Source: Erysipelotrichaceae bacterium
GTDB lineage: Bacteria > Bacillota_I > Bacilli_A > RFN20 > CAG-449
Assembly: GCA_015059095.1 (NCBI GenBank)
Contig: SVBA01000016.1
Coordinates: 1,204-39,842, forward strand
Length of the DNA: 38,639 nucleotides
Reading direction: 5' to 3'
The position numbers were made by a program, and so were the translations under genes. How positions within the stretch are numbered: position 1 is the stretch's first letter; the number at the start of each line of letters is the position of its first letter. A model generated the notes under the pieces. It was not told the DNA's origin. It saw only the letters and a program-made list of their open reading frames with translations, and searched no databases. Shown here one piece after another: positions 35,340 to 38,494 of the stretch.

Positions 35340-35509
35340 GGGACTTGTACCTTCTTAAAAAAGAAAAAAGTTTGACACTAATGTATCAAACTTGCTTGTC
35401 TTAAATGGCAAACACTACCTATTTTAATACAATTCCGTACCCTTTAATGAGTAATCGTTAAAAGGTTTGCTATTTCCGTACCCTTGTAGGTAGTTTTTGT
35501 ACCTTTATT
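35340..35509 (-). repeat. Cassette-boundary unit A
   Basis: In plus-strand order it holds: a degenerate tRNA-tail trace (GGGACTTGTACC, 35340-35351); a terminator-like hairpin (AAGTTTGACAC 35369-35379 with GTATCAAACTT 35384-35394, T run 35363-35368 on the minus strand); the 70-bp repeat 35398-35467, identical to 36819-36888; and the outer inverted repeat ACTACCTA (35414-35421) / TAGGTAGT (35487-35494). CCGTACCCTT occurs at 35435 and 35476, and TAATCGTTAAAA at 35452. It lies directly 3' of the lipoprotein gene. The rest of the gap 35229-35339 shows no gene. Confidence 0.75.
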
Positions 35510-35520
35510 CATATTGCCAG

Positions 35521-36447
35521 TTAATTAATTTTATTATATGTTCCAAACACCCAAGTTGAATCTTCAATTTCACTTGGACTTTCTGTGTGATGATATAAAT
35601 CATTAATTACAATTTTATTTGGATTGCTAAAATCACCTCTAAGATAGAAATCAGGTGGATAATAAATACCAAATGTCGTATCGTAACGTTCTTTATCAGC
35701 ATCAGTAACTTTATTATAAGGGTCATTTTCTATATAAAGATAAATTGTCTTTTTATCTTCCGCTATTGTAATAGTTCCTTCAATAATTGTTTCACCATTT
35801 ACATATTGGAACAATTCATTCGTTACAGGTTTAGTATATAAGAAAGTAAAACTTTCTCCAGTTTCTAACGTATAAGTACCACTTGGAATGCAGAATTTAT
35901 TAGAGTATTTATAATTATCAGATTCTACTTTGTAATCATTACCTTCTAAAATATAACTTCCCATTTTATAAGGTAATTCACTAATTCGATAAATATAAGT
36001 ATGAATAGAACCATCAATCATTCCAAGATCTTCTTCTTCACTCATAATTGTAAACTGAGTAAAATCACTATTAAAATCTTCGACATAACATCCAACCCAA
36101 TCTTCTTTTTCTTTATCACTTCTTGTAAAAATAAAAGTTAGAGGTGTTATGACATCTTTACTAGTTCCCTTAGAAACAACTCTATAAGTTCCATTATATT
36201 TTTTAATACCATCTTCGACATAACTGTATGTCATAATATTTTTGCTACCATCAAATGTAAAATAGGTATCTTCATCATCTTTCAATAACCATTTGCCTGT
36301 AGATGATTCTAGTTCATTATCAAAGTTTTCAACTTTTCCATTTGATCCACTACCACCTAATAAGTTATCTAAAAAATCACAACCAGTTAACATACAAGAA
36401 ATTGTAATCAATAGAAAAAAAGAAAACAAATTAATAATTTTTTTCAT
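35521..36447 (-). CDS. Predicted lipoprotein of unknown function
   Basis: A 308-residue protein with a type II signal peptide: basic start MKKI, hydrophobic 8-19, lipobox LTGC with Cys23 as the modified residue (substrate for Lgt). A Gly/Ser/Asn linker (about 30-40) follows, then a mostly beta-strand mature part rich in Tyr, Thr and Asp, with repeated short patterns such as GKWLLKDDEDTYFTFDG, SGTYTLETGESFTF and GTITIAEDKKTIYL that suggest lipocalin-like or beta-sandwich repeats. I recognise no family. It sits as a single gene between boundary units A and B. The ribosome site is GAGAGGCG before ATG 36447. Confidence 0.75.
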   Translation of the reverse strand: MKKIINLFSFFLLITISCMLTGCDFLDNLLGGSGSNGKVENFDNELESSTGKWLLKDDEDTYFTFDGSKNIMTYSYVEDGIKKYNGTYRVVSKGTSKDVITPLTFIFTRSDKEKEDWVGCYVEDFNSDFTQFTIMSEEEDLGMIDGSIHTYIYRISELPYKMGSYILEGNDYKVESDNYKYSNKFCIPSGTYTLETGESFTFLYTKPVTNELFQYVNGETIIEGTITIAEDKKTIYLYIENDPYNKVTDADKERYDTTFGIYYPPDFYLRGDFSNPNKIVINDLYHHTESPSEIEDSTWVFGTYNKIN

Positions 36448-36624
36448 CTTTATCGCCTCTCTTTAATTGAGTTAGTTTTTAGTATAATTATTATATAAAA
36501 TTTATATCATTTTGTCTATGAAACGACACAAAAAAAGAGCGCTCTTCTTATTCTCTAAAAAATTATCCATTATGTCACCTTCTAATCTAGTGCCTATAGT
36601 ATACCATAAAAATAGCTTTATTTT

Positions 36625-36947
36625 AAGTAATCGTTAAAAGGTTAGTAATCGTTAAAAAGTTAAAACTTCAAACGTGTTCGCTTATTATTTTTAGCTTGAA
36701 AAACAATGCCTTTAAAAGAAAAAAAAGCCAACACAGGGCAAATAAAAGGCGTAACGGTGGGACTTGAACCCCTAAAAAAGAAAAAATCTCGACACATTTA
36801 ATTGTATCAAGATTAGTAGTCTTAAATGGCAAACACTACCTATTTTAATACAATTCCGTACCCTTTAATGAGTAATCGTTAAAAGGTTCATTTTTTCCGT
36901 ACCCTTGTATTAAAAGTCCGTACCCTTTTAGGTAGTTTTTGTACCCT
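36625..36947 (-). repeat. Cassette-boundary unit B (most complete copy)
   Basis: Contains TAATCGTTAAAA at 36628, 36646 and 36873. A 37-nt stretch 36737-36773 is identical to 38328-38364 and includes the tRNA-like tail. A terminator-like hairpin occupies about 36779-36814. The 70-bp repeat is 36819-36888. Nested inverted repeats are ACTACCTA+TTTTAATAC (36835-36851) against GTATTAAAA (36907-36915) and TAGGTAGT (36929-36936). CCGTACCCTT occurs at 36856, 36897 and 36918. The segment 36625-36828 is about as similar to 38234-38420 as two diverged copies. Between 36448 and 36624 there is only a 12-bp palindrome AAGAGCGCTCTT (36535-36546) and no gene. Confidence 0.75.
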
Positions 36948-36970
36948 ATTTCTAATCGATAAATAGTAAT

Positions 36971-37639
36971 TTATCTTTCTCTTTCTAAACACAATTCTAT
37001 ATATTTAATCATATCATCGTTTAATTTATTATGTTCATAATCAAATTCTGATAAATAATCATTAATATTAATTTCTTTTAATTTTTTTTCATTAACTTCA
37101 TCTGTTATTTGATCAAGAATATTTCCAATTTTTTTATGAATAGTCATTGATGCTAATTTACCACCAAAATTCATAATTGTTACATATCGATGAAATAATC
37201 TTAATAATATAAGAGCAAATCCAATTATATTAATTTCTATTACATCATTATAATAATTATTTAAAAAGTATTTAATATTATTTTTTAATTCATCATCAAC
37301 ATTAAATTTTGCATCACTAAGAATTTTTAATATTTTATTATACTTAAATTCGATAATGTTGCTATTCTCTTTTTCTAATTCATTATTTAAATATTCATAT
37401 CCTAATTTTTCAAAAGGTAGATAAGTTAACATATCTAAATATAGATAAAATTTTAATTCGGCATCTAAACTAAAATCATGAAATAAATAATATATTATAC
37501 AATTTCCTTTTGCAAAAAGACTATGATATTCAGTTTCAAGATAGTCTTTAGTATTATAAATATCTGTCATCATTATTCTTCTTAAGTTCATGTCATATAA
37601 TACATGAGTTGAAAAACCACTATAATCTTTTCTTTCCAT
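36971..37639 (-). CDS. Unknown protein, 222 residues (cassette gene)
   Basis: A mostly helical, charged protein with many Asn, Tyr and Ile, no signal peptide, and one moderately hydrophobic stretch (about 134-150, EINIIGFALILLRLFHRYV). No family recognised. ATG 37639 is preceded by AGGAGG, so it is a real gene. It begins 11 bases after the stop of the 83-residue ORF at 37651, so the two are co-transcribed. It ends 24 bases before the inverted-repeat end of boundary unit B. Confidence 0.65.
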   Translation of the reverse strand: MERKDYSGFSTHVLYDMNLRRIMMTDIYNTKDYLETEYHSLFAKGNCIIYYLFHDFSLDAELKFYLYLDMLTYLPFEKLGYEYLNNELEKENSNIIEFKYNKILKILSDAKFNVDDELKNNIKYFLNNYYNDVIEINIIGFALILLRLFHRYVTIMNFGGKLASMTIHKKIGNILDQITDEVNEKKLKEININDYLSEFDYEHNKLNDDMIKYIELCLERER

Positions 37640-37650
37640 AATTTTACCTC

Positions 37651-37902
37651 CTAATCTAGCATACCGAAATATCTTGAATGTTTAACATCTAGTTCTCTTT
37701 CTAAATCTTTTCTAATTTCACGTTGATATTCTTCAAATAAAGCATCCCACGAAACTTCATATTCTTCATCGCTCATAAAACTTGTAGTATATGTTGCTGA
37801 TACATTCATTGGATAAATTGCGTAAACTATATCATTATATATGAATTCTATATGTGCAAGTTTTACTGGATATTGCTCAATAAATGTTTTTTTATACTCC
37901 AA
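37651..37902 (-). CDS. Unknown small protein, 83 residues (cassette gene)
   Basis: A Tyr- and Glu-rich protein. The first half is beta-like (VKLAHIEFIYNDIVYAIY), the second half an acidic helix (SWDALFEEYQREIRKDLERELDV). There is no signal peptide and no family recognised. The size, acidity and position before a larger partner fit an antitoxin or immunity protein, but nothing specific supports that. The ribosome site upstream of ATG 37902 is weak (an A-rich stretch with AAAGATATTGGAG). Confidence 0.55.
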   Translation of the reverse strand: MEYKKTFIEQYPVKLAHIEFIYNDIVYAIYPMNVSATYTTSFMSDEEYEVSWDALFEEYQREIRKDLERELDVKHSRYFGMLD

Positions 37903-37932
37903 TATCTTTTTATTCCATTTATCTAAAAATAG

Positions 37933-38076
37933 TTAAAGTTCATTAGGTATATCTAAGTATTGATAATCATATAAACTTACTACATCTTTATACCAAATAT
38001 CAAATGTACCATTATTATCAAACCAACGTTTATATTCAAAATTATCATCTTTGGGTTTGGTATATATAACCTTCAT
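37933..38076 (-). CDS. Small ORF, 47 residues (first cassette gene)
   Basis: A short frame beginning MKVIYTKPKDDNFEYKR and ending YDYQYLDIPNEL, rich in Tyr, Asp and Trp, 30 bases before the 83-residue ORF on the same strand. The ribosome site (GGAAAG, about 8 bases away) is weak. It could be a real micro-protein or the remnant of a longer gene. Confidence 0.4.
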   Translation of the reverse strand: MKVIYTKPKDDNFEYKRWFDNNGTFDIWYKDVVSLYDYQYLDIPNEL

Positions 38077-38339
38077 AAAAACACTTTCCAATCTATAAAT
38101 TCTAATTTATCTATAAGTCAATTATACCATAAAAACCTAATTTATACCATTAATATGTAAATCGTTAAAAGGTTAGTAATCGTTAAAAAGTAAGGGTAAT
38201 CGTTAAATTGTTAAAAAAGTCCGTACCCCTAACCTACTAATCGTTAAAAAGTTTAAACTTCAAACATGTTCGCTTATTATTTTTCACTTGAAAAAGTGTC
38301 CCTTAAAAAGAAAAAAAGCTCACACATGGCAAATAAAAG

Positions 38340-38364
38340 GCGTAACGGTGGGACTTGAACCCCT
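38340..38364 (-). pseudogene. tRNA 3'-end-like fragment
   Basis: On the minus strand it reads GGGGTTCAAGTCCCACCGTTACGC: a TTCAAGT T-loop with three intact G-C stem pairs, then a seven-base acceptor-like strand. No D-arm, anticodon arm or 5' acceptor precedes it, and no CCA follows. The identical fragment is at 36748-36773. Confidence 0.6.
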
Positions 38365-38372
38365 ATAAAAAG

Positions 38373-38405
38373 AAAAAATCTCGATACTTTTTATTGTATC
38401 AAGAT
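38373..38405 (-). terminator. tRNA-Lys terminator
   Basis: Minus strand ATCTTGATAC (38396-38405) pairs with GTATCGAGAT (38378-38387) with one mismatch, followed by a T run (38373-38378), 14 bases after the tRNA end. Related hairpins at 36779-36814 and 35363-35394 keep pairing with different bases. Confidence 0.8.
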
Positions 38406-38418
38406 TGGTAGTCTTATA

Positions 38419-38494
38419 TGGTGCACCTCCGGAGACTCGAACTCCGGACCCACTGATTAAGAGTCAGTTGCTCTGCCAACTGAGCTAGAGGTGC
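38419..38494 (-). tRNA. tRNA-Lys (CUU)
   Basis: A 76-nt cloverleaf on the minus strand. The acceptor GCACCTC pairs with GAGGTGC and CCA is encoded. D-loop AGTTGGCA, anticodon loop CTCTTAA with anticodon CTT at 38459-38461, and T-arm CCGGAGTTCGAGTCTCCGG are all present. It is the anchor of the repeat array that follows it. Confidence 0.96.

Follow-up and report, generated by a model that had tools for sequence, protein, structure and literature searches.

Candidate serine-recombinase attachment sites bound an array of small gene cassettes behind a tRNA-Lys gene in an Erysipelotrichaceae genome

A 38,639-nucleotide stretch of contig SVBA01000016.1 from an Erysipelotrichaceae bacterium (assembly GCA_015059095.1; referred to here as the window) carries at positions 35340-38494 a tRNA gene followed by small genes and three related non-coding units. 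An earlier note, made from the letters of the DNA alone, had described this locus as a cassette array anchored at tRNA-Lys on the minus strand, and ARAGORN indeed calls tRNA-Lys(ctt) at 38419-38494 on that strand, with a CCA end at 38421-38419 that carries the proposed crossover dinucleotide CA (38420-38419). Along the minus strand, on which all features of the locus lie, tRNA-Lys(ctt) is followed by unit C and two genes, then by unit B and a lipoprotein gene, and lastly by unit A. The locus comprises one cassette of 1,592 bp, another of 1,421 bp and a left end belonging to a third. The repeat copies in the units are spaced 1,421 and 1,592 bp apart, which are the intervals between the crossover points at 38419, 36827 and 35406. 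That the three units are related was correctly seen: identity between copies is 92% over 107 nt, 88% over 83 nt, 88% over 78 nt and 91% over 55 nt, and CCGTACCCTT is confined to this locus within the 1.76-Mb genome (5 forward matches, and 0 with a reversed-pattern control).

The units do act as boundaries, as the note had it, but each is a composite, in which one cassette's right end meets the left end of its successor; unit C (38160-38418) is a left end alone, directly joined to the tRNA, because the tRNA CCA stands in the place of a right end. This left end of cassette 1 consists of 16 nt of spacer, TTGATACAA (38402-38394), a terminator hairpin (38406-38377), the T-arm-like motif GGTTCAAGTCC (38361-38351) and distal TTTTTAACGATTA repeats. 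Where the note listed three separate open reading frames (ORFs) of no recognized kind, we find one broken and one intact gene in cassette 1, neither with a Pfam or PADLOC match: the gene of 222 aa (36971-37639) is intact, whereas the 52-aa ORF (37933-38091) and the 83-aa ORF (37651-37902) are a single reading frame of about 146 codons (37651-38091) split by one TAA at 37933. Unit B opens with the right end of cassette 1 (36854-36950), marked by repeats of the word GGGTACGG, continues with a 52-bp junction (36802-36853; crossover CA at 36828-36827) that forms the attP-like palindrome TTGTATTAA-N16-CA-N16-TTGATACAA with 0 mismatches to the consensus, and closes with the left end of cassette 2 (36620-36801), comprising a terminator (36814-36785, overlapping the junction), a T-arm-like motif and TTTTTAACGATTA repeats. 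Cassette 2 holds the gene for a predicted lipoprotein of 308 aa (35521-36447) that has no Pfam match. Unit A repeats the pattern with the right end of cassette 2 (35433-35510, again with GGGTACGG repeats), a 52-bp junction with 1 mismatch to the consensus (35381-35432; crossover CA at 35407-35406) and the left end (35340-35393) of a third element, probably an older one, with a terminator at 35393-35368 and a diverged T-arm-like motif, GGTACAAGTCC; no right end of this third element was found. The window cassettes contain no recombinase gene.

The anatomy of the ends is as follows. A right end consists, in order, of element-specific word repeats, TTGTATTAA, 16 nt and CA; a left end of CA, 16 nt, the TTGATACAA hairpin with its T-tract, the T-arm-like motif and the TTTTTAACGATTA repeats. 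An element thus runs from 16 nt ahead of TTRATACAA to 16 nt past TTGTATYAA. When joined, right and left ends give a 52-bp imperfect palindrome, TTGTATYAA-N16-CA-N16-TTRATACAA, and the CA at its dyad centre is that of the CCA end of the tRNA. Large serine recombinases (LSRs) act on attP and attB through crossover at a 2-bp core; their attP half-site is 25 bp long with the zinc-domain motif at bp 16-24, and on attB the zinc domain shifts 5 bp inward (PMC3783163). In the elements studied here, TTGTATYAA spans -25 to -17 relative to the core, and the letters ahead of the core differ between elements (GCCA, GACA, GGCA; i.e. CCA, ACA or GCA) while CA alone is constant, in agreement with a 2-bp LSR core. 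The overall layout, a site of about 50 bp that is pseudo-palindromic about a central dinucleotide, is that of the attP of an LSR-integrated element. On the side of the target, the T-loop TTCRANTC of the tRNAs starts at a fixed -21 from the crossover. The left-end hairpin with its T-tract scores as a terminator, and the region has only three such. Just past this terminator, in the window at 38351-38361 and at about 36757-36770, lies the T-arm-like motif, which is also present in the attP of a phage described below (L294); it matches at 10-11 of 11 positions in 12 of 41 left ends, compared with 1 of 600 random stretches.

Over all loci fetched, the 16-CA-16 spacing yields 22 distinct junctions, compared with 0, 1 or 2 at each other spacing tried, and on these counts the unit structure as a whole goes far beyond what chance would give; a pattern search with a different gap returned chance matches only and served in effect as a negative control. 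The junction site (at most 2 mismatches) is present in 146 of the 279 genomes of the order, and matches to the reversed pattern are rare. The left-end motif (at least 8/9) occurs exactly 16 nt past the CCA in 19 of 60 distinct tRNAs and tmRNAs and at none of 21 other offsets (8 to 29), figures that speak of position and not of a genome-wide rate, since the 60 were chosen around elements. More than ten kinds of tRNA are occupied in addition to tmRNA, including those for Lys, Ser, Glu, His, Val, Leu, Thr, Arg, Ile and Met. The units sit at tRNA or tmRNA 3' ends or at cassette junctions, which is not the random dispersal of simple repeats that the note had set against its own proposal.

The enzyme that fits these sites is encoded on related phages. 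A search with the right-end pattern matched an IMG/VR contig bearing two LSRs, and in siphophage-like prophages close relatives of the larger one occur as members of LSR pairs (about 440 and 528 aa); in one putative helper phage (L209), as opposed to the window cassettes, the two LSRs each contain Resolvase, Recombinase and zinc-ribbon domains. Of 19 close-clade LSR loci (the 21 fetched minus two with almost no downstream sequence), 7 have a right end no more than 1.5 kb downstream, against a background of 4.4% (P = 1e-5); among distant-clade LSR loci the count is 0 of 9. Conversely, an IMG/VR scan for exact attP sites that was blind to genes returned 12 contigs, 10 of which have LSR genes within the examined stretch, usually paired and just upstream of the site. 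In the phage form, attP and integrase gene are thus neighbours, as in these 10 of 12 viral contigs and, among them, in L294, a viral contig with an LSR pair whose attP region matches unit B at 85% over 257 bp, terminator and T-arm-like motif included, with the LSR stop about 150 bp from attP; unit C matches the same contig at 93% identity across 124 bp. An attC-like hairpin is seen in the right ends of units A and B and of L294, and is not general.

Complete prophages show both ends in place. One at tRNA-Arg (G241, about 48 kb) and one at tRNA-Thr (G250, about 45 kb) run in order from left end through phage genes and LSR to right end, and the Anaeroplasmataceae phage NatCom_34063 has a left end at one extremity and a right end at the other. 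Beside the right ends of phages, short words specific to the phage type are repeated (GGGTATGCA, GTGGTTGGA, GTGGCTAAT and ACGGTTCC; L253, L209, L241, L243, L246, L247); these are possibly a specificity site or a site for a directionality factor. From sequence comparison, the units are very probably attachment (att) sites of an LSR family that integrates DNA at the CA of tRNA and tmRNA CCA ends. The note's comparison with integrons and tyrosine recombinases was accordingly mistaken in mechanism: the boundary resembles an LSR att site, and the enzyme resides on related phages.

Cargo changes between like ends, both within this genome and among relatives. Elsewhere in the same genome a cassette with a glutathione peroxidase gene lies at tRNA-Ser, an array with several junctions at tRNA-Glu and one cassette at tmRNA. 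Two related genomes (G012 and G009) agree in the left end behind tRNA-His and in the genes that precede this tRNA, but before its right end G012 has a lone regulator gene and G009 a block of transporter genes; the last right end in G009 is followed by a plain terminator of host type. The note had proposed to look in relatives for boundary units of the same kind that carry other ORFs after tRNA-Lys; the two genomes show this at tRNA-His. The lipoprotein gene, too, changes context: relatives of the lipoprotein gene (72-93% identity) are found in seven metagenome-assembled genomes with different neighbours and right ends of different types. Sharing of right ends between phage and cassettes also extends across families: the right end of a G143 phage is found again on cassettes in G005, G039 and G045. 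With the placement of the units, the changing cargo of relatives supports a cassette array that is anchored at a tRNA end and has one boundary element per cassette.

Several further observations concern cargo. The longer tRNA-Glu(ctc) array (L049:3763-12400, G000:C1) holds AAA kinase, GNAT, glyoxalase-like and other small genes, and its AAA kinase gene is found again in L006 and L056. In several genera, one type of AAA ATPase gene (ITGIRRxGKS...) is often present close to right ends (L161, L163, L165, L167, L168, L171, L175). Close behind the left end of several cassettes or prophages lie restriction-modification or DNA-methyltransferase-like genes (L162, L254, L256), which suggests defence cargo.

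In the mechanism that we propose, cargo-only cassettes with these ends would be excised and inserted in trans by phage LSRs. An incoming cassette would insert at the tRNA CA and shift older ones outward; such growth outward from the tRNA is weakly suggested by the more diverged third left end. The tRNA itself would stay intact. As the sequence shows, the left end supplies a terminator, so that the tRNA keeps one, and the host terminator is displaced beyond the last right end. The recombinase may read the T-loop at -21, near the position expected for the shifted attB motif; reading at this fixed position would explain why many tRNA kinds are targets, and T-loop and CCA together would make a near-universal landing site. 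Since the window's genome has no close LSR pair (best match 26% identity), its arrays would be stranded at present unless a phage arrives.

We thus propose a serine-recombinase counterpart of the integron, in which cassettes accrete at any tRNA or tmRNA through a T-loop-reading LSR pair with crossover in the CA, the enzymes being supplied in trans by widespread temperate phages and the cassettes moving between families of gut Bacilli; we give this reading as a whole a probability of roughly 50%. Several points weigh against the LSR account, mobile cassettes included. The case for excision and integration is drawn from DNA sequence; the attB side shares the CA and the T-loop only, with no conserved right half identified, which is odd for an LSR; 12 of the 19 close-clade LSR loci have no right end within 1.5 kb; a close LSR pair and the window's cassettes were never found together in one genome; and the tRNA sample was built around elements, as noted above. 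Moreover, the cassettes might not move at all and could be what is left of degraded prophages.

This last alternative shares the LSR reading of the units and differs solely on cassette movement: the cassettes would be immobile, worn-down ("grounded") prophages of the same LSR family, reduced by internal deletion to the att ends and one or two passenger genes. Complete prophages do exist at tRNAs, with ends of identical types and with accessory genes near the left end, and both the broken gene of cassette 1 and the lack of a close LSR pair in the window's genome would be in keeping with decay. Such decay must, however, be squared with cassettes that keep 9/9 att motifs yet have no recognised phage gene, with single genes of about 1 kb flanked by both ends and lying in series, and with lipoprotein and AAA kinase genes that recur beside different end types and neighbours in several genomes. 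We regard grounding as a possible account, though not a probable one. Intact ends, absent phage genes and single genes recurring beside different end types favour movement, and the cassettes are best read as putative trans-mobilised satellites, or else as prophage remnants.

It is improbable that the units are attL or attC sites of a tyrosine integrase, whether of a tRNA island or of an integron-like array, even though tRNA 3' ends are the classic target of such enzymes (PMC4383910) and one adjoins a right end (L159). The element ends share CA or CCA alone, with no displaced tRNA fragment, the dinucleotide dyad centre and the constant 16-nt arms match an LSR attP, and it is LSR pairs that repeatedly adjoin the site. 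The L159 integrase was rejected as cargo, its homologues having no site nearby, and XerC/D, considered since some array genomes have those two tyrosine recombinases only, were set aside when no supporting site was found. As for the linked tyrosine recombinase that the note had suggested seeking, the genome has three, none of them at the arrays. An unrelated island has a 361-aa tyrosine integrase pointing at tRNA-Leu(gag) (L107:1943-3222, G000:C31), its far end lying off the contig.

More doubtful still is an IS21-like DDE transposon, for which CCA would be a 3-bp target duplication between inverted terminal repeats. The element ends are inverted repeats, and an IstA/IstB pair does lie upstream of a right end in L011, but only CA is constant before the crossover, as in a 2-bp LSR core and unlike a 3-bp duplication, and IstA/IstB stand beside that single end only; IS21 ends were rejected on this ground, and the third gene there was assigned to cargo. 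Despite the good intrinsic-terminator match held by the left end, ordinary intergenic repeats or look-alike tRNA terminators are refuted, to the point of being scarcely credible, by the 257-bp match to a viral contig, the fixed spacings and the different cargo between the same ends.

The proposed cassette system of phage-encoded LSRs is of interest for its choice of target. tRNA genes are among the commonest bacterial integration sites, and a reference work names tyrosine integrases as the only enzymes known to target them (PMC4383910); the system described here appears to use them through serine recombinases. Our literature search, which mostly did not extend to subscription journals and does not establish priority, returned no report of LSRs at tRNA CCA ends. 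The crossover dinucleotide is common to all tRNAs with an encoded CCA, and one enzyme pair could thereby reach many sites and leave the tRNA unharmed. If active, the system, whose junctions are present in about half of the genomes of the order, would be a route of gene exchange across uncultured gut bacteria and would offer new LSRs with a near-universal landing site.

Among known systems, tRNA islands of tyrosine integrases share the general location, the tandem accretion and the cargo islands, and differ in enzyme class; the displaced 3' tRNA fragment at the far end was not found here, where right ends repeat CA or CCA only. Serine-integrase prophages of the A118, Bxb1 and phiC31 type likewise have a pseudo-palindromic attP of about 50 bp with a central dinucleotide, beside the integrase gene (PMC3783163), whereas here there is an LSR pair and a pan-tRNA target. 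Phage satellites (PICI, P4-like) offer a parallel in possible helper-phage dependence in trans, and in our case att sites are shared between phages and cassettes; the present cassettes differ in having no integrase, and no phage-interference genes were recognised in them. The staphylococcal and enterococcal cassette chromosomes (SCC, ECC) with CcrA/CcrB also use two LSRs, which are of comparable size; their att sites are about 50 bp long and contain inverted repeats, they insert at the 3' end of a gene, and they form composite islands that have several att sites and variable cargo (PMC6222049). Their target is rlmH, unlike the CCA end of many tRNAs and tmRNA, and the drivers here would be temperate phages, whose LSRs are distantly CcrA/B-like (140.4 and 151.9 bits, far below the Ccr cut-offs, 900 for CcrB); the window junctions lack TATCATAA, the core motif of SCC/ECC. 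Integron arrays and CALIN similarly string together small gene cassettes with one recombination site each and a recombinase supplied elsewhere, but the site, the enzyme class and the anchor are unrelated, and the genome's three tyrosine recombinases lie on contigs C26 and C31, away from the arrays. Because its LSRs fall below the Ccr cut-offs, its target is not rlmH and it has no IntI or attC, the system is a member of neither group, yet it works like both an SCC/ECC element and an integron array.

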